Source: Acidobacteriota bacterium (GTDB taxonomy: Bacteria; Acidobacteriota; Terriglobia; Terriglobales; Acidobacteriaceae). Taken from it: a stretch of DNA of 44,785 nucleotides. Positions 7,856 through 18,358 of the stretch are shown one piece after another (position 1 is the stretch's first letter; the number at the start of each line of letters is the position of its first letter). The position numbers and the translations under genes were made by a program. Location: positions 1 through 44,785 of the forward strand of contig JAHFUA010000005.1 of the NCBI GenBank assembly GCA_023265315.1, read 5' to 3'. The notes under the pieces were generated by a model that was given only the letters and a program-made list of their open reading frames with translations, did not search any database and was not told the origin of the DNA.

Positions 7856-9133
7856 CTATTCCTTGAGGTTGAATGCGCCCGCGGGATCGAACCAGCACCG
7901 TTTCCAAAAAGCGTTATCAGAGAGATGGCCTGCGGCCCATTGCTGGAGCGACGGCAAAGTGGCAGCCGCCATTCCGCCATCCCGGGAATCGAAAACGATG
8001 ACCACTCCTGCGAGGTCCGATGCGCCTTCGGGAAGCTCCGAGTACGTTTTATGGAATATGGATCTCGCGTAAATAAGCCGGCTGATCTGGGCAGGGTCTC
8101 CGAGCGGCTGCACCCATATGATTTTCACTCTCTTGCCCCGAAGGGGCTCCCAGTTTCCAGGAAATGTGGACATTTCTTCCCGACTTTTTCGAAAAGAGGG
8201 TTCCGCCGACTGAGAAATGTCGGTGGCTTGCGACGCGCGCTCGGCCGCCGTCGGCAGCTCAAGTTGCGAGCGCTGAATCCAGCCGCGGGAGAGCCCGGAA
8301 ATGCGCACGTGCACCCAGGATCCTTTGATTTCCAGGATCTGAAACTCGTCTTCGCTCTCGGCGCGGAGCACCACCTGGGCGCCTTCGATGGGAGAGGCCA
8401 GGAGCGGCGTGTTCGAGCTCTTTACCGCCGCGAGATCATCAGGACGTGTTTGGCTCTTGAGAATCTCTTGCAGGCTCTTTAATTGCTCGCGCAACTGCCG
8501 CATCCGCTGTTCGTCGGCGGGGCTGCCGGGAAAAGCATTGCCGGATTTCTGCGGCAGCGAGAGAGAAGCGGTCAGATTGGGCGCGCGGGTGACGCCAGAA
8601 CCGCGAGTAAGAGCTGGGGCCGGTTTATCCGGCAACGACGCGAACATGTCGGGTGTCCCGTGACTGCGCTGATCCGGCAATGCCAGCCCGCCCGTGAAAT
8701 GGCTCGTCAACTCCTGTTCCAGGCGGTCGAGCAGATCCGCCTCCAGCCGCCCATTGGAAGCAAGCACGCGGTATCCGGAGTGGGTCTCATCGTGGGCTGC
8801 ATACCATGCCGTGATCTTCGCCGTCACGCGAACCTGCGTCTCACCCGCAGCCGTAACGTTGAGCTGAACGGAGTATTGGTAGTATCCGCGCTGGTAGCGA
8901 TCCAGGGAATGTTCCTGGGAAAGCACGAAGCCTTCGAGGATAGGCAGTCGCCCTCCGGAATAGGCGCCAAGGTTGCGCAGCTTGCTTTCCACTGCCGCTT
9001 TGGAAGCATGGAAACTGCGCTCGGCGGGGAGGCGCTGAGCTCCAACCAAAGGTGCTGCCGCGAGCCCCACCACCCACAAACAGACGAGCCCGCGGAAGGC
9101 ATGGCTGCTGCCGGATGTCCATTTGCTGCTCAC
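7856..9133 (-). CDS. Secreted hypothetical protein with bacterial SH3-like domain
   Basis: Signal peptide-like FRGLVCLWVVGLAAAPLVGAQ; SH3-like SWVHVRISGLSRGWIQRSQLELP; GTG start at 9133 overlaps upstream TGA (GTGA). Confidence 0.65.
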   Translation of the reverse strand: MSSKWTSGSSHAFRGLVCLWVVGLAAAPLVGAQRLPAERSFHASKAAVESKLRNLGAYSGGRLPILEGFVLSQEHSLDRYQRGYYQYSVQLNVTAAGETQVRVTAKITAWYAAHDETHSGYRVLASNGRLEADLLDRLEQELTSHFTGGLALPDQRSHGTPDMFASLPDKPAPALTRGSGVTRAPNLTASLSLPQKSGNAFPGSPADEQRMRQLREQLKSLQEILKSQTRPDDLAAVKSSNTPLLASPIEGAQVVLRAESEDEFQILEIKGSWVHVRISGLSRGWIQRSQLELPTAAERASQATDISQSAEPSFRKSREEMSTFPGNWEPLRGKRVKIIWVQPLGDPAQISRLIYARSIFHKTYSELPEGASDLAGVVIVFDSRDGGMAAATLPSLQQWAAGHLSDNAFWKRCWFDPAGAFNLKE

Positions 9134-10104
9134 GGTAGCGGCTCCAGTTGACTGCGATGAATCCAGCCGCGGTGTCCGTCCTCGGTCTCTACCCCATACC
9201 AATAGGAAGTAATTATAAGGATCACCACTTCGGTTCTCGCGGCCAGCAGTTGTACGTTGCTGGCGCTCTTGAAGGGCGCGGATTTCAGCGGTGTTGCGGC
9301 ATCCTTCACGCGACGTTCCACTTGCCGCCGAACCTGCTCAATTTGCGCTTCCAGATCCTTCGCGGAGTCGCCCGCGGGAACGGTACTGGTCGCCGGCAGT
9401 TCAGTCTTGGCCGGCCTCTGCTTCTGCTCTTCGGCTTGCTTGCGCCGCCGTGCCAGATCCTGCGCCTCTTCCTCCGCCTGCTGCTGCTTCAAGACGATGG
9501 CCTGCAAGTGCTCCTTGATAGCGGCATATTCCGCGGACTCGACGCTGCCCTGCGACGCATGCGCCTTGTGCCGGGCATCGATGAACACGGCATCGATCTG
9601 AACATTGCTGGCGGTCGGGCCGGCCGCCTGCACGATGTACCTCACCGTGATGGTGCCGACGTCTTCACTGTCCTTGAAATAGCGTGGCGCGAGCACTCGT
9701 TCCGCCACCTTGTAGAACACCTTGGGACCGGCCGGCGAATCATGGAAGGCGGCGGAGGAATCGGCGGCATGAGCTCCGTACAGGATCTTCTCTTTGTCGT
9801 ACGAGAAGGTTCCGTGAATGATCTGGTCGGCGGCGACTTCGTGCACCGCTTGCAGAACGTCGGCCTCGGGGGCGTCCAAGCGGGCGCTGAAACTGGTTTC
9901 CGGAACCGTAGCGGACCCAGCCGCGGGCAGGGCAGAAAATAGGATGGCCAGGGCGAGGCAAGCCCACCACGCCAGCCAAACTGCTCGGACCCAGTTCACC
10001 CCAGCGTCCTGAGCTCCTCTGCTGTTGCCGAACCGCATATCCCGTGGCACGTCGTCGGGCATCTTGAGGTGTGCATACCTACCGTGGGCCGTGGCGAATG
10101 TCAA
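9130..10104 (-). CDS. Secreted/membrane-anchored hypothetical protein with C-terminal SH3-like domain
   Basis: Hydrophobic N-terminus AVWLAWWACLALAILFSALPAAGSA; coiled-coil AEEEAQDLARRRKQAEEQ; SYWYGVETEDGHRGWIHRSQLEPLP. Exact start uncertain. Confidence 0.65.
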   Translation of the reverse strand: MTFATAHGRYAHLKMPDDVPRDMRFGNSRGAQDAGVNWVRAVWLAWWACLALAILFSALPAAGSATVPETSFSARLDAPEADVLQAVHEVAADQIIHGTFSYDKEKILYGAHAADSSAAFHDSPAGPKVFYKVAERVLAPRYFKDSEDVGTITVRYIVQAAGPTASNVQIDAVFIDARHKAHASQGSVESAEYAAIKEHLQAIVLKQQQAEEEAQDLARRRKQAEEQKQRPAKTELPATSTVPAGDSAKDLEAQIEQVRRQVERRVKDAATPLKSAPFKSASNVQLLAARTEVVILIITSYWYGVETEDGHRGWIHRSQLEPLP

Positions 10105-10607: not shown

Positions 10608-11966
10608 ATGGCCGGTGCCCGGAGGGGTTTGCCCTGTCTGCTGTTGCTTGCGTTCGTGTTTTTGGGCTCTCTGCGACCCGCCGTCGCCATTCCCGCCTTT
10701 GCGCGCAAATATGGCCTTCCGTGCTCGGCTTGCCACGAGGCTTGGCCTAAGCTGAACGTCTTCGGTCAAACCTTTAAGGACAACGGCTACCAACTCATGA
10801 ATGACCGGGATTCTCCTATCTGGCAGAACCCTTCGTATTGGCCGGTGACCATGCGCATCACCCCCCACTGGCATCGCGAGAGCGTCAACAAGGTCGGGGT
10901 CGACACGGAAGCGGGCTTTAATAGCGCCGAGGTCAAGACCATGTCTCATGGATTCGATCTCTCCGGCCTCGATATCCTCTCGGGCGGCACGCTGTACAAC
11001 AACATCTCCTTCCTGTTGGTGCCCTCCTTCGAAAATACGGGAGACGCGTTCAGCTTCGAATCCGCCTGGGTGCGGTTCGACAACCTGCTCAAGACTCCCT
11101 GGCTTAATTTCAAGGTCGGCAAGTTCGAGCTGGACAACATCATCTCCGAGAAGCGCGGCATGACGCTGTCCAGCCAGGGCGGAGGCTATCAGCTCTACCA
11201 CTTCATCCCCCTGGCGGAACTGGTCAACGGCAGTCCGGTTATCAACACCTTCGTGCAGCTTGGAGACAACCAACTCGGGCTCGAAGTGATGGGGCATTCC
11301 AAGAATGACCGCACCCGTTACTCGGTCGCGGTGATAAGCTCCAATGACGGCGGCGTAAACCTCCCCAACGGGAATTCCTACAGCACCTACATCACGGCCA
11401 GCCAGGCGTTTGACACCGGCAAACTGGGGGTGCAGCGCGTAGGGGGCTATTTCTTCGCCGGCGAGGCGCCGACCTTTTATCTGCAACAAAACGGGGCGAA
11501 CCTTGCAGGCACCGGAACGGGTAACAAATCATTTCACCGGGAGGGTGCCTTCGCTTTGTTCTACCTGAAAAAGCTCGACTTCTCTGTGTATTACCAGCAC
11601 GGCTGGGACAGCCCGTATTTCGGCACCGGTACGGGGGCGAACCAGACACTTCCGGATGGGGCGCGGGCGGCGACCTGGAACGGCGCCTTCGTGGAGACCC
11701 ACTACACACTAAATCCGCAGCTCATCTTCATCCAGCGCTCGGAGTTCGTGCGCATGTCGCAGCAGCCGCTGCCCGGGATTCCGTCCAGTTTCGGAAACAT
11801 TGACGCGTACACGTTCGCGACCCGCTGGTATCCCATCATGTTCAGCCGCGCCGGCCTGGCCCTGCATGGCGAGTACTCCCTGGTGCGCCAGCAGGGGGCG
11901 GCGCCCGTCTCACTTACCAGTTTGACCGGCAGCAGTGTATTCCTGGGATTTGACTTCGACTTCTAG
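10608..11966 (+). CDS. Cyc2-like fused monoheme cytochrome c-outer membrane porin
   Basis: Signal peptide then AIPAFARKYGLPCSACHEAWPKLNVFGQTFKDNGY (Cyc2-type heme motif), about 400-aa beta-rich remainder ending in aromatic FLGFDFDF; ATG at 10608 with AGGAGG upstream. Confidence 0.75.
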   Translation: MAGARRGLPCLLLLAFVFLGSLRPAVAIPAFARKYGLPCSACHEAWPKLNVFGQTFKDNGYQLMNDRDSPIWQNPSYWPVTMRITPHWHRESVNKVGVDTEAGFNSAEVKTMSHGFDLSGLDILSGGTLYNNISFLLVPSFENTGDAFSFESAWVRFDNLLKTPWLNFKVGKFELDNIISEKRGMTLSSQGGGYQLYHFIPLAELVNGSPVINTFVQLGDNQLGLEVMGHSKNDRTRYSVAVISSNDGGVNLPNGNSYSTYITASQAFDTGKLGVQRVGGYFFAGEAPTFYLQQNGANLAGTGTGNKSFHREGAFALFYLKKLDFSVYYQHGWDSPYFGTGTGANQTLPDGARAATWNGAFVETHYTLNPQLIFIQRSEFVRMSQQPLPGIPSSFGNIDAYTFATRWYPIMFSRAGLALHGEYSLVRQQGAAPVSLTSLTGSSVFLGFDFDF

Positions 11967-11977
11967 GAGGCATACCG

Positions 11978-12823
11978 ATGCGCGCAAAGCTAGCGAGATG
12001 GTTGTTCTTTGTGGTTGCCGCTGCGGTGTTCGCCTTGTGTGCCACTTCCTGGGGCCAGGAAAGCCAGGGAATGGGGATGGAGAGCCACATCGGCAAACTG
12101 ACGGGGCACGCCAGGGCCGGGGCGCCGCTGTATCGGCGGTTCTGCATCGGCTGCCACGGCTCCCTCGGGGACGGCGAGGGCGAGAACGCCATGTGGATCG
12201 ACCCCAAGCCGCGCAATTTCACCCTCGGCATCTTCAAATGCCGCTCCACCCCCAGCGGGACCTTGCCTACCGACGAGGACCTATTCGAGACCATCGCTCG
12301 CGGCGTGCTCAACTCCAACATGCCGCAATGGCGCCCGCTCACCGACCAGGACCGCGCGGATCTGATCGCGTACGTGAAGCATTTTTCTCCGCGGTTCGTT
12401 TCCGAGAAGCCTGGGCCACCGATTCAAGTTCCTCCGGAGCCGGAAGTGACGGCGGAAAGAATCAAGGCGGGGCAGGCAACCTTTAAGAGGATTGAATGTT
12501 GGAAGTGCCACGGGGTGGAGGGCCGGGGCAATGGTCCTTCGGCGGACACCCTGACGGACGATCAAAACCGGCCGATCAAGCCGTTTAACTTTCACGACAC
12601 CGATCGTTTCAAGTGCGGTGCGAGCGACCAGGATCTCTACAAAATTTTCATGACCGGGCTGGACGGTACGCCCATGCCTTCGTTCATGGACAATCTCAAG
12701 CCTGACGATGCGTGGGACCTGGTGTTTTACCTGCGAACTTTGCAGCCCATGCACACCAAAGCCAAGGACATCGCCCAGCAACTCGGCTTGAAGCCAATCA
12801 ACCCCTATGCACCGGCTAAGTGA
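11978..12823 (+). CDS. Diheme cytochrome c
   Basis: Signal peptide; two CXXCH motifs (FCIGCHG, CWKCHG) in two cytochrome c domains. Confidence 0.88.
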   Translation: MRAKLARWLFFVVAAAVFALCATSWGQESQGMGMESHIGKLTGHARAGAPLYRRFCIGCHGSLGDGEGENAMWIDPKPRNFTLGIFKCRSTPSGTLPTDEDLFETIARGVLNSNMPQWRPLTDQDRADLIAYVKHFSPRFVSEKPGPPIQVPPEPEVTAERIKAGQATFKRIECWKCHGVEGRGNGPSADTLTDDQNRPIKPFNFHDTDRFKCGASDQDLYKIFMTGLDGTPMPSFMDNLKPDDAWDLVFYLRTLQPMHTKAKDIAQQLGLKPINPYAPAK

Positions 12824-12847: not shown

Positions 12848-13594
12848 ATGAAGAATTGGTACAAATGCGCAGGAACGCTGACCGTGCTTGTGCTCCTGGG
12901 GCTTGCGCTCCTGTACTCGGGACCCTCTGTAGGCGCCGGCAGCGGCGGCAAGATCACCGGCACCATTAAGCTGGAAGGTGCCCCCGCGCACCAGCGGCCC
13001 ATCGATATGTCGAAGGATCCGGTGTGCGCCCAGCAACACACCGGCAATCCGGTCAGGACGGAAACGGTGGTGGTGGGCCCGAATGGGGGACTCGAATATG
13101 GTGTGGTTTACATTTCGGAGGGTCTTCCCGCGGGCGCCGCTAATGCCGTGTCCTCCCAGCCCGTAACCTTTGACCAGAAGGGCTGCGTGTATCATCCGCA
13201 CGTCATTGCGGTGGACGTGGGCCAGAAGATCGAGGTAGCGACCCACGATCCCACCACCCACAACATTCACCCCCTGCCGTCGGCGGGCAGCGGCAACATC
13301 GGTTGGAACAAATCTCAACCGCCGGGGTCGCCTCCCTTCGAGACAACTTGGAAAGCTCCGGAAGTTGCCATCCCGGTCAAGTGCAACATTCACCCCTGGA
13401 TGCATGGCTACATGGCAGTGGTCAAGGGGCCCCACGCGGTCAGCGATGACAAAGGCTCCTACACTATCGACAACGTCCCGCCGGGGAACTACACCCTGAC
13501 AGCCTGGCAAGAGACCTACGGGACACAAACGCAAAAAGTGACGGTGGCATCCGGCAAGTCAGCTACGGCCGACTTTACGTTTAAGGGCAAGTAA
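12848..13594 (+). CDS. Secreted cupredoxin-like protein with C-terminal carboxypeptidase-regulatory-like domain
   Basis: THNIHPLP and VKCNIHPWMHGYMAV (candidate His/Cys/His/Met copper ligands), then SYTIDNVPPGNYTLTAWQE. Confidence 0.75.
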   Translation: MKNWYKCAGTLTVLVLLGLALLYSGPSVGAGSGGKITGTIKLEGAPAHQRPIDMSKDPVCAQQHTGNPVRTETVVVGPNGGLEYGVVYISEGLPAGAANAVSSQPVTFDQKGCVYHPHVIAVDVGQKIEVATHDPTTHNIHPLPSAGSGNIGWNKSQPPGSPPFETTWKAPEVAIPVKCNIHPWMHGYMAVVKGPHAVSDDKGSYTIDNVPPGNYTLTAWQETYGTQTQKVTVASGKSATADFTFKGK

Positions 13595-13684: not shown

Positions 13685-14488
13685 TTGGCGAAGATTTTTG
13701 CGATAACACTCATAATCATCGCGATAGCTTCTGCGGTTCCGATCATTCTCCACACCTGGTACCCGCCGGCCGATATTTCGACCCATGGGGCTTTGATCGA
13801 TGAACAAATGGCCGACACCATGATCGAGGCCGGGGTCTCGTTCCTGGCCGCACAGATCATCCTGGCGGTGTTTATCTGGTGGTTCTCCACCTCCAAGCCC
13901 GGGCAAAAGATCAGAAACTTCCCGGGCGGCGCCCGAGGCTTAGTGGCAGCGGCCATTGTTCTTGTCGGACTGGAAGTGCTCGCGCTGGGAGTGTTCGGGC
14001 AGAAGGCGTGGGCGAATATCTACTTCACCCCGCCTGGGCCCAATGCTATGCCGATCCAGGTCCAGGCGGGGCAGTTTGCCTTCTACTTCCGCTATCCCGG
14101 ACCCGATGGGAAGTTCGGCCCCATCCATCCCGAACTCATCAACGAGGCTACGCAGAACATCTTTGGGCTGGACCTGGACCACGACCAGGATTCGAAGGAT
14201 GACATCGTAACCGCCCAAATGGCTGTGCCCGTCAACCGCGAGATCCACTTGCTGATGCATGCCAAGGACGTCGGGCATTCGTTTTACGTGAGGGAGTTAC
14301 GGATCCAGCAGGACTTCGTGCCGGGACTGGATCTTTCGCTTCATTTCACCGCCACCACACCGGGCAAATACGAGATTGTTTGTACCCAGCTTTGCGGGCT
14401 GGGACATTACAACATGAAGGCCTATCTGTTGGTTATGTCGCAAGCAGATTTCGAGAACTGGCTCAAGCAGCAAGCGGCGATGCAGTAG
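13685..14488 (+). CDS. coxB: Cytochrome c oxidase subunit II
   Basis: Membrane helices; CuA motif IVCTQLCGLGHYNM; GHSFYVRELRIQQDFVPG. TTG start as given. Confidence 0.9.
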   Translation: MAKIFAITLIIIAIASAVPIILHTWYPPADISTHGALIDEQMADTMIEAGVSFLAAQIILAVFIWWFSTSKPGQKIRNFPGGARGLVAAAIVLVGLEVLALGVFGQKAWANIYFTPPGPNAMPIQVQAGQFAFYFRYPGPDGKFGPIHPELINEATQNIFGLDLDHDQDSKDDIVTAQMAVPVNREIHLLMHAKDVGHSFYVRELRIQQDFVPGLDLSLHFTATTPGKYEIVCTQLCGLGHYNMKAYLLVMSQADFENWLKQQAAMQ

Positions 14489-14523: not shown

Positions 14524-16317
14524 ATGGACGAGACGTCGCGGGCGTCGCAGGCAGCGCACCATGCTCCCCCGCAGGGCTTCATTCGCAACTACATATTCAG
14601 CCTCGACCATAAGATTATCGGAAAGCAGTATTACGGCCTGGCTTTGCTGGCCGTTCTCACCGGGATGGTGCTTTCCTGGCTGATGCGCATCCACCTGGTG
14701 TGGCCGAATTCTCCGGTTCCCGGGCTGAAATGGCTGGCGCACACGTCCGCTCCTAACGGCGTCATCACCCCGGAATACTACCTGTCGCTGATGACCATGC
14801 ACGGGACGCTGATGGTGTTTTTCGTGCTCACCAATGCGCCCTTCGCGGCTTTTGGCAATTACTTTTTGCCTATCCAGATCGGCGCCGAGGACATGGCGTT
14901 CCCGCGATTCAACATGATGTCGTTCTGGATGACGTTCCTAGCCTTCTGTGTCCTGATGGCGGCGTTGTTCGTCGGCGATGGCCCGCCGATCTCTGGCTGG
15001 ACTGCGTACCCGCCTCTGAGCGCCGTAGGCGCCGTGGCGGGGCCCGGTCAAGGAACCGGTCAGACTCTGTGGGGACTGTCGATCGCGATCTTTTGTATTG
15101 CCTCGTTACTGGGTTCGCTGAACTTCATCTCCACTACGCTCGACCTTCGCGCCCGCGGTATGACGCTGATGCGCATGCCACTTTCTACCTGGGCGTGGTT
15201 CATCACCGCGTGCATCGCGCTGCTCGCCTTCGCCGTGCTGCTGCCGGCTTGCGGGCTGCTCATCCTGGATCGCCTGGCGGGAACCAGTTTCTTTGTGCCC
15301 GCAAACCTGGTGGTGAGCGATCAAATCCAGCCGCACTCCGGGGGGTCGCCTCTGCTCTGGCAGCACCTGTTCTGGTTCTTCGGCCACCCCGAGGTGTACA
15401 TCGCCATCGTTCCGGCGATGGGCATTGTTTCGCACATCCTGATCAACGCCATGCGGCGGCCGATGCTCAGCCACAAGGTCATCATTTATTCGCTGATGTC
15501 TCTGGGATTCCTGAGCTACATGGTTTGGGGACACCACATGTTTGTCAGCGGCATGAACCCGCTCTCGTCGCTGATGTTCTCCTTCCCCACGCTGGTAATC
15601 ACCATCCCGTCAACCATCCTTACCTTGATCTGGATCGGCAGCCTGTATGGCTGCAAACTGCGCATCACCAGCGCTTCGCTGTTTGCCCTGGGTTTCGTTT
15701 CCCTGTTCGTCAGTGGCGGCGTCAGCGGGTTTTTCCTGGCGCAACCCTCGATCGATGTCCTGCTCCACGCCACCTATTTTGTGGTGGGGCATTTCCATCT
15801 GGTGATGGGTGTGGCGGCTATCTTTGGAGTCTTCGCCGCTACCTATTTCTGGTTCCCCAAGATGTTCGGCCGGATGATGAATGAGAGGCTGGGGAAGATC
15901 CACTTCTGGCTCACCTTCGTCGGCGCCTATTTGATTTTCATGCCGTTCCATTATCTGGGGATGGCGGGGAACGTACGCCGCTACTCGGCTTTCGTAAACG
16001 ATTACCTGCAGCCGCTTCTGCCCGTGCATAGGTTCATCACGATTGCCGCTCTGGCCACCGGCGCCGCCCAGATCATCTTCCTCTACAATCTGATTCACAG
16101 TCGCTTCCGCGGCGAGCCCGCCCCGCAGAACCCCTGGGAAGCTACTTCGCTCGAGTGGACGGTTCCGTCCCCCCCGCCTTGGGACAATTTTGCGGGGAAG
16201 ATCCCAGTCGTCTATCACGATCCCTACCAGTACGGCGTAAAAGGGGCGACCGGCGATTACGTCATGCAGGATTCGCCGCAGAAAATTCCCACCGTTCCCG
16301 AAGAAGGGCGCAGGTAG
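14524..16317 (+). CDS. coxA: Cytochrome c oxidase subunit I, A-type
   Basis: MTMHGTLMVFF, GNYFLPIQIGAEDMAFPRFN, WFFGHPEVYIAIVPAMG, HATYFVVGHFHLVMG. Confidence 0.95.
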   Translation: MDETSRASQAAHHAPPQGFIRNYIFSLDHKIIGKQYYGLALLAVLTGMVLSWLMRIHLVWPNSPVPGLKWLAHTSAPNGVITPEYYLSLMTMHGTLMVFFVLTNAPFAAFGNYFLPIQIGAEDMAFPRFNMMSFWMTFLAFCVLMAALFVGDGPPISGWTAYPPLSAVGAVAGPGQGTGQTLWGLSIAIFCIASLLGSLNFISTTLDLRARGMTLMRMPLSTWAWFITACIALLAFAVLLPACGLLILDRLAGTSFFVPANLVVSDQIQPHSGGSPLLWQHLFWFFGHPEVYIAIVPAMGIVSHILINAMRRPMLSHKVIIYSLMSLGFLSYMVWGHHMFVSGMNPLSSLMFSFPTLVITIPSTILTLIWIGSLYGCKLRITSASLFALGFVSLFVSGGVSGFFLAQPSIDVLLHATYFVVGHFHLVMGVAAIFGVFAATYFWFPKMFGRMMNERLGKIHFWLTFVGAYLIFMPFHYLGMAGNVRRYSAFVNDYLQPLLPVHRFITIAALATGAAQIIFLYNLIHSRFRGEPAPQNPWEATSLEWTVPSPPPWDNFAGKIPVVYHDPYQYGVKGATGDYVMQDSPQKIPTVPEEGRR

Positions 16318-16319
16318 TT

Positions 16320-17006
16320 ATGGCAACCACGGTTCATGAACCACCCAGGGTGCGACCCCGCAAACTGCCCTCCCGGAAGCAAGGGACAGGCTCCGGCGGC
16401 GGTGGCTGGCGGGATCGGACACCGTCTGACGGCAGCTTCCTTGCTGTCGGTGACCGCTCTACCGCGTCCAAGACGGGTGTGTGGGTGGGGCTGGCGGCCA
16501 TCACCATGTCGTTTGCCGCATTGACCAGCGCCTTGGTGGTGCGGCAGGGCTCGGCAGCAGACTGGCAACACGTCACCCTCCCCCGTGTTCTTTACCTGAA
16601 CACGCTGGTGCTGGTGGCCAGCAGTTTTACGCTTGAGTTTGCGCGGCGCCGCTTCTCAAGGCTCGCCTTCCTGGGGTCGGGCGAAGCCACTGCCAGCCCG
16701 CTGCGATGGCTCTATGTGACGCTATCGCTCGGATTGCTCTTCGTCGGCGGGCAATACGCCGCCTGGCTGCAATTGAAGTCCCAGGGTTTATATCTGGCGA
16801 CTACTCCCAGCAGCTCGTTTTTCTACGTGTTAACCGCGGTACATGCCCTGCACGTTCTGGGAGGGCTCGGCGGGCTGATCTATGTTTCAAGCAAACTTCG
16901 CAGATCGGCGCTGCGGAAAAACACGCTGGATGCCGCCTCGCACTACTGGCATTTCATGGACATACTTTGGTTGTACCTGTTTCTGCTGCTCTGGGTGAAA
17001 CTCTGA
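16320..17006 (+). CDS. Cytochrome c oxidase subunit III family (first copy)
   Basis: SKTGVWVGLAAITMSFAALTSALVVRQGS, VLTAVHALHVLGGLGGL, ASHYWHFMDILWLYLFLLLWV; ATG at 16320. Confidence 0.85.
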   Translation: MATTVHEPPRVRPRKLPSRKQGTGSGGGGWRDRTPSDGSFLAVGDRSTASKTGVWVGLAAITMSFAALTSALVVRQGSAADWQHVTLPRVLYLNTLVLVASSFTLEFARRRFSRLAFLGSGEATASPLRWLYVTLSLGLLFVGGQYAAWLQLKSQGLYLATTPSSSFFYVLTAVHALHVLGGLGGLIYVSSKLRRSALRKNTLDAASHYWHFMDILWLYLFLLLWVKL

Positions 17007-17028: not shown

Positions 17029-17679
17029 GTGAGCCAAGCCGATCTTAGTTCCATGGGCGGCTCCCACGTAGTGGGAGCGCATGCAGGGCACGCACTGGAA
17101 GAGTCGCCCTACCGGATACCCTCCAAGAAGCTGGTGATGTGGCTGTTCATCATGTCGGATGCAGTCACATTTGCGGCGCTCCTGTTCGCTTACGGCTACT
17201 TGCGGAACGCCACTCCCGGCTGGCCGCGGCCGTTCCATTTTTCGCCGACCGTGATCAACGCCATGATCATGACCTTCGTTCTGGTGACCAGCGGTTTTAC
17301 CATGCTGATCGCCATGCGTGCCGCCAACCTGGGCAACAAGGCGGGAGCCCTCCGCTGGACGTTCATCACCGCTGTCGCCGGCATCATCTTTGCCCTGCTG
17401 CACATCCGGGAATGGATCGGGCTCATCGGCGAGGGCCTGCGGCTCTTCCAGAACCCATGGGGCTCCGGGCTGTTTGGCGCAGCTTTCTTCACCATCACCG
17501 GCTTGCACCTTTCGCACGTCGTGGGTGGTGTGATCGCGCTTGCCGTGGTGGCGATCGGCTACCAGCGTGGCCGTTACGATGCCGGCCACATTGAGATCTG
17601 GGGCTTGTACTGGCACTTCGTGGACATCGTTTGGATGTTCGTGGTCCCATTTGTGTATCTGTTGAACATCGCCCATTAG
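17029..17679 (+). CDS. coxC: Cytochrome c oxidase subunit III family (second copy)
   Basis: KLVMWLFIMSDAVTFAALLFAYGYLR, ITGLHLSHVVGGVIAL, IEIWGLYWHFVDIVWMFVVPFVYL. Confidence 0.9.
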   Translation: MSQADLSSMGGSHVVGAHAGHALEESPYRIPSKKLVMWLFIMSDAVTFAALLFAYGYLRNATPGWPRPFHFSPTVINAMIMTFVLVTSGFTMLIAMRAANLGNKAGALRWTFITAVAGIIFALLHIREWIGLIGEGLRLFQNPWGSGLFGAAFFTITGLHLSHVVGGVIALAVVAIGYQRGRYDAGHIEIWGLYWHFVDIVWMFVVPFVYLLNIAH

Positions 17680-17709: not shown

Positions 17710-18042
17710 ATGAATACTGCCGGGCACAACCGGGATGAAATGTCGAAGGACTTGAGCGGGAGTGTGGCAAAGAACTTTGTTATCTACGTTTGCATGCTGA
17801 TCATCGCGGGATTACAGTTCGTGGTCGCCTATCAGCACATCGACAGCTCGCAAATGTTTCTTCGCATGTTCCTGCTCGCCATAGTCGAGGCCGGCCTGGC
17901 GGTCATGTTCTTCATGCACATGGGGGCGGAGCGTCGGAACTTTTTTGTGACGGTCGCCATTGGTTTAGTCTTCGTACTCTCGATGATGAATATGATCTGG
18001 TCGGACAGCTTCCGGCTGTTACGGTTTCAGGTGCTGAAGTGA
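17710..18042 (+). CDS. Cytochrome c oxidase subunit IV, prokaryotic type
   Basis: 110 aa, three hydrophobic segments, FFMHMGAERRNFFVTV; directly downstream of subunit III. Confidence 0.8.
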   Translation: MNTAGHNRDEMSKDLSGSVAKNFVIYVCMLIIAGLQFVVAYQHIDSSQMFLRMFLLAIVEAGLAVMFFMHMGAERRNFFVTVAIGLVFVLSMMNMIWSDSFRLLRFQVLK

Positions 18043-18079: not shown

Positions 18080-18358
18080 ATGACGGCTCAACGATGCTTG
18101 CGACCAATCCTGTTGGCATTGCTCACAGTGATTGTTCTGGTGCTCCCTCTTCAGGCCTTTGCCCAGAGTTGCGCGCTCTGTTATACGCAGGCGGCCTCGG
18201 CCACCCAGCGGTTCATTGCGGCGCTGCGCAGCGGTATCCTCATCCTTATTATCCCTCCCATGTTCATGTCGATCGGAATCACGCTTCTGGCCTACCGAAA
18301 ACGCAACCAGTTCAATGATGGCAGCGATACCCCGATCGAGTCTGGCTGGGGCCTCTGA
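18080..18358 (+). CDS. Small membrane protein with periplasmic CxxC (CALC)
   Basis: Signal/TM segment, QSCALCYTQAASATQRFIAALR, second TM; in line with cox genes. Confidence 0.6.
   Translation: MTAQRCLRPILLALLTVIVLVLPLQAFAQSCALCYTQAASATQRFIAALRSGILILIIPPMFMSIGITLLAYRKRNQFNDGSDTPIESGWGL

Follow-up and report, generated by a model that had tools for sequence, protein, structure and literature searches.

A cyc2-like gene precedes a dedicated aa3-type oxidase in a conserved operon of an Acidobacteriota family, suggesting respiration with electrons acquired at the cell surface

The window analyzed here, a stretch of 44,785 nucleotides from an Acidobacteriota genome, contained nine same-strand genes separated by gaps of 2–90 bases, in the order cyc2, diheme c, cup, coxB, coxA, coxC, coxC, coxD, and a 92-aa orf (Table 1). 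We consider it rather likely that this operon serves an aerobic respiration fed by electrons that the cell collects at its surface, and the donor would most likely be Fe(II). A search of the open-access literature gave no report of this operon. The occurrence of a cyc2 ortholog in about a quarter of the family genomes, mostly followed by the copper-protein and oxidase genes, is new here, and the operon is a variant of the Cyc2-oxidase theme.

Table 1. Features of the cyc2-oxidase operon and of the divergent genes beside it.
Feature	Position	Strand	Basis
sh3_A, exported SH3-domain protein	7856..9202	-	weak PF06347 match
sh3_B, exported SH3-domain protein	9130..10104	-	weak PF08239 match
Cyc2-like fused monoheme cytochrome - putative outer-membrane porin	10608..11966	+	452 aa; Cyc2 motif, single CXXCH
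Periplasmic diheme c-type cytochrome, two class-I domains	11978..12823	+	PF00034/PF13442
cup, copper-site protein, C-terminal CarboxypepD_reg domain	12848..13594	+	PF13620
CoxB, oxidase subunit II	13685..14488	+	TIGR02866, PF00116
CoxA, oxidase subunit I	14524..16317	+	TIGR02891; alignment to 1m56/1ar1
CoxC-1, oxidase subunit III, start taken as MATTVHEPP	16320..17006	+	PF00510
CoxC-2, second subunit III-like protein	17029..17679	+	PF00510, TIGR02842
CoxD, subunit IV	17710..18042	+	PF03626
orf92, small 92-aa membrane protein	18080..18358	+	synteny at end of oxidase operons

An AGGAGG Shine-Dalgarno sequence lay immediately 5′ of the cyc2 ATG. As judged by eye, the product carried a putative Sec-type signal peptide, PCLLLLAFVFLGSLRPAVA followed by IP, with predicted cleavage between RPAVA and IPAF, and after the signal peptide the protein read IPAFARKYGLPCSACHEAWPKLNVFGQTFKDNGYQL. 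The Cyc2 family is defined by the motif AXPXFAR[Q/K][T/Y] upstream of CXXCH and by PXL downstream, and the first of these is stated to be unique to Cyc2 (Keffer et al., 2021, PMC8406198). The stretch AIPAFARKYGLPCSACHEAWPKL of the Cyc2-like protein fully matched AXPXFAR[Q/K][T/Y]-CXXCH-PXL, and the alignment showed the same motif spacing as in Acidithiobacillus Cyc2. The N-terminal Cyc2 pattern recognized in the initial annotation was thus present as the complete motif. The motif region was near-invariant in 44 family members, and a chance match could be excluded from the conservation across the phylum and the family. Where the family criteria applied here were a single heme site and a length of at least 365 aa, the protein had one CXXCH and 452 aa. 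Its C-terminus was ...FDFDF, and Phe was the final residue in 43 of the 44 members, in agreement with the terminal Phe of the initial annotation. A C-terminal Phe is common in outer-membrane barrels.

Named rus operons were retrieved using rusticyanin as bait, and the Cyc2 references were of the Acidithiobacillus type. Within this small set, the BLAST alignment of the Cyc2-like protein with these references covered 41 aa, with an identity of 44% (E 4e-6). When ten relatives were combined into a profile, hhalign aligned it with five Acidithiobacillus-type Cyc2 over residues 3–157 (probability 97.1, E 5.6e-11), and a second, wider family profile gave E 5e-10 against Acidithiobacillus Cyc2 over the heme domain. 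Together with the motif, these alignments supported the proposed Cyc2-like identity. Homology to Acidithiobacillus Cyc2 is detectable from the sequences, and by motif, heme number, length, and homology the protein belongs to the Cyc2 family. It shared with Cyc2 of Acidithiobacillus and relatives a putative signal peptide, the motif and its spacing, one heme, a similar length, and a C-terminal aromatic residue, whereas the motif read FARKYG instead of FARQTG and global identity was about 16–23%.

The barrel part of the protein gave no alignment to Acidithiobacillus Cyc2 by BLAST or hhalign; among Cyc2 the porin part is as a rule poorly conserved (PMC8406198). No Pfam or NCBIfam model matched the Cyc2-like protein, and the missing NCBIfam match says little because Acidithiobacillus Cyc2 gets none either. 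Sequence and profile searches of the PDB found no match for it. For the predicted 16-stranded outer-membrane barrel, weak matches among 30 homologs gave some indirect support, the Pfam beta-barrel porin model BBP2 matching five (best 3.2e-5) and Porin_O_P matching one (0.024), and the conserved C-terminal Phe points the same way. AlphaFold models, computed without a deep alignment, were unusable (pLDDT 27 with Acidithiobacillus Cyc2 rows and 31 alone). A strand-periodicity test based on the hydrophobic moment was dropped, as it gave no signal here and also failed to tell known Cyc2 and controls apart. A plasmid collection gave one weak match, from Methylocystis. The same genome encoded a second Cyc2-motif protein of 536 aa (FARQYNTSCSTCH...; G000 contig C68, L050:136-1746), which had no oxidase or copper-protein neighbors visible on its short contig.

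The genes downstream of cyc2 agreed with the initial annotation, which had named a diheme cytochrome c, a cupredoxin-like protein, and oxidase subunits. The diheme c gene followed cyc2 in the neighborhoods examined, and its orthologs had another two invariant Cys besides the two CXXCH; the protein is likely an electron carrier beside Cyc2. The copper ligands of cup, H-C-H-M (HN...C-x2-H-x2-M), aligned across homologs, and CoxB carried the CuA motif C-x3-C-x3-H-x2-M, CTQLCGLGHYNM. In CoxA, the heme and CuB ligands, the cross-linked Tyr, and the D-channel were intact, all of H102, H284, Y288, H333, H334, H419, H421, D132, N139, and E286 being present. As had been proposed, the cluster headed by the Cyc2-like gene encodes an aa3-type oxidase. 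Its K-channel lysine (Rhodobacter K362) is replaced by Leu. After coxD came orf92 and then an amidase gene, and the operon contained no rusticyanin gene. The orf92 gene was syntenic in most of the 44 neighborhoods and also in the paralogous oxidase cluster of the same genome. Upstream, sh3_A and sh3_B were divergent from cyc2, and this pair was kept beside cyc2 in most neighborhoods.

In a tree with its root on the Acidithiobacillus group, the CoxA proteins of the operon fell into a single clade (support 0.947). Beside it stood acidobacterial CoxA with the lysine retained, among them the own-genome paralog. The 36 members of the operon clade all had I, L, V, or M at the K-channel position, and none had Lys. 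K-channel losses have been reported for archaeal A-family oxidases (PMC8239418). We considered whether the loss marks oxidases linked to iron and rejected this, since several other lineages of the phylum lack the lysine with no cyc2 nearby. Across the window and the loci L105-L107, L111-L120, L125, L126, L133, and L136-L138, some of which kept Lys, it was exchanged for I, L, V, M, F, or Y in several distinct oxidase lineages of the phylum, with Tyr in some. A third CoxA of the genome, apparently split over two contigs (L076:1-918 and L077:9894-10745), kept the lysine and had Ala at the E286 position.

The rus operon of the Acidithiobacillus ferrooxidans type has the order cyc2-cyc1-cup-coxBACD (PMC10654088). 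The present operon resembled it in gene order up to coxD, in carrying genes for a diheme c and a copper protein between cyc2 and coxB, and in a CoxA without the K-channel lysine. However, the rus operon includes rusticyanin, which is absent here, and the present operon had two coxC genes and no adjacent ctaA or ctaB. The D-channel was also kept here, whereas rus CoxA has lost D132 and N139 along with the Lys. The components of the two operons were not orthologous, because CoxA was 31% identical to Acidithiobacillus rus CoxA as against about 60% to its own-genome paralog (contig C122, L075), and because the diheme c and cup had no BLAST match at 1e-4 to Acidithiobacillus Cyc1 and Cup. A search of the genome for Acidithiobacillus Cyc1, run without a positive control, likewise gave no match. 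Judging by the identities and the nesting in the CoxA tree, the two operons seem to have acquired their oxidases separately, and the rus-like layout was probably assembled independently.

The paralog on contig C122 represents the standard acidobacterial aa3 oxidase. It shared the coxBACCD-orf92 order with the present operon, but it kept the K-channel lysine and had no cyc2, diheme c, or cup alongside. In Leptospirillum, Cyt572 and Cyt579 likewise combine a Cyc2-like outer-membrane cytochrome with a periplasmic c cytochrome, and the diheme c matched the NCBIfam model cytochrome579 with E 2.7e-12. Kinship of the diheme c with Cyt579 was rejected: the score of 46.8 bits compared with a cut-off of 280, this model was not the best match, and the likeness reflected general cytochrome similarity only.

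A cyc2 ortholog was found in 85 of the 348 genomes of the host's family, representing 27 of 79 genera, and the family carrying these orthologs almost certainly belongs to Acidobacteriota. In a sample of the whole phylum, 65 of 297 genomes had a relative of the Cyc2-like protein, mostly a distant one. Across 44 neighborhoods (43 plus the window), cyc2 ran into the copper-protein and oxidase genes in 39, a count that includes a few neighborhoods cut at contig ends and L194, where the SH3 pair is inserted. No oxidase stood next to cyc2 in L034, L182, L186, L190, and L191. An oxidase of the same clade was present in 72 of the 348 family genomes. Of these, 65 also belonged to the 85 with cyc2, and in 56 both lay on the same contig; the co-occurrence gave a Fisher p of 4e-44, a statistic that ignores shared ancestry. 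Seven oxidase-bearing genomes, G344 among them, had no cyc2 match, and the neighborhoods of the other six were read. In G539 the cyc2 gene was cut, and in G587 and G477 contig ends cut the neighborhood; G147, G350, and G541 had the oxidase with no cyc2 near it. In G147 (L108:4035-7373), the place of cyc2 before the K-less oxidase was taken by genes for a repeat protein and for a CarboxypepD_reg-like protein that may have a heme site; these could form a different electron donor module.

The two parts of the operon also occurred separately. A cup-coxBA arrangement without cyc2 was found elsewhere in the phylum, and G073 had the cyc2-diheme c pair apart from any oxidase. In one distant relative, G278 (L036:7800-13221), cyc2 and diheme c were followed by a CcoN-like subunit and a CcoO/diheme fusion, that is, by a cbb3-type oxidase. 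The simplest reading is that the cyc2-diheme c pair has been placed before different oxidases, and this pairing is the strongest argument from sequence for an electron flow between the Cyc2-like protein and O2 in that direction. In the proposed mechanism, a dissolved donor, most likely Fe(II), would enter or dock at the barrel of the Cyc2-type protein, which is predicted to lie in the outer membrane. The electron would then pass to the single heme, on to the periplasmic diheme c and/or the copper protein, and through CuA of the dedicated aa3-type oxidase to O2. The operon context, conserved across the family, supports such an outer membrane-to-O2 path, which the initial annotation had called plausible. 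Also in its favor are the Cyc2 motif and homology, the rus-like gene order, the co-occurrence with the oxidase, and the copper protein beside many other Cyc2-motif proteins of the phylum. Counting against it are the missing PDB match, the lack of rusticyanin, the searches for Cyc1 and RuBisCO that found nothing, the listing of Terriglobia only as reducers, and the three genomes with the oxidase but no cyc2 near it.

All characterized Cyc2, one per published cluster, oxidize Fe(II), and a single heme associated with a pore has been argued to favor a small dissolved donor (PMC8406198). Both points favor Fe(II) and stand against the alternative that the same path runs from the outer membrane to the oxidase with a donor other than Fe(II), such as Mn(II), reduced humics or quinones, a redox protein of another cell, or a mineral or electrode. 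Such a donor is possible, if rather doubtful: the function of Cyc2 cluster 3 and of distant homologs was called most uncertain in the same study (PMC8406198), the spread of homologs over 65 of 297 phylum genomes is unexpectedly broad for dedicated iron oxidizers, and a search of the genome for RuBisCO found none. The lack of a RuBisCO match would also suit a role of the Cyc2-like protein and diheme c in iron or redox stress, through detoxification of extracellular Fe(II) or redox sensing; the oxidase would then act as an electron sink that yields little energy. The exported SH3 proteins whose genes are kept beside cyc2 hint at functions in the envelope, and the missing K-channel lysine may alter proton coupling. 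However, for detoxification alone a full oxidase of its own, with two subunits III and a conserved D-channel, would be costly, and we consider this role improbable.

It is more improbable still that the protein is not a Cyc2 in function, and that an exported monoheme protein with a generic cytochrome motif stands beside an ordinary oxidase by chance. The similarity to Acidithiobacillus Cyc2 is indeed limited to the N-terminal part, and BLAST covered only 41 aa of it. Against this, the motif is reported as unique to Cyc2 (PMC8406198), the hhalign alignment reaches residue 157, some homologs match the BBP2 porin model, and the synteny is family-wide.

The partial 16S sequence of the genome contained an exact copy of GATCCTGGCTCAGAATC, which we take to be the Acidobacteria primer 31F. 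In a host without RuBisCO, the operon would likely serve a heterotroph as an auxiliary source of energy or in handling iron and redox conditions. Terriglobia have been placed in the iron cycle only as reducers (2026 survey, PMC12911419). With some hesitation, we put forward a more complete proposal: a family of Acidobacteriota whose class is listed only among Fe(III) reducers would carry an aerobic Fe(II)-oxidizing chain, assembled independently of the rus operon when cyc2 and diheme c came to stand before an acidobacterial cup-aa3 module, with the K-channel lysine lost as in the rus oxidase.

As a marker of iron oxidation by microbes, Cyc2 is the principal one, and it has many divergent homologs. 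Here a cyc2 homolog is tied to its own oxidase operon in about a quarter of the family genomes. Bacteria of this family, represented here by a soil-type Acidobacteriota genome, may respire electrons acquired at the surface, probably from dissolved iron, and the prediction is that these Acidobacteriota use O2 to oxidize Fe(II) in solution or some other donor at the surface. Should this hold, iron oxidation would also occur in probable heterotrophs within a widespread phylum. That the K-channel lysine is lost both here and in Acidithiobacillus would then hint at how oxidases adapt to donors of this kind, although there are also K-less oxidases that have no cyc2.

Many other Cyc2-motif proteins of the phylum adjoined a copper protein (L043-L046, L048, and L139-L146). 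Two of these loci were read further, and cytochrome b-like and multiheme-like genes were found downstream.
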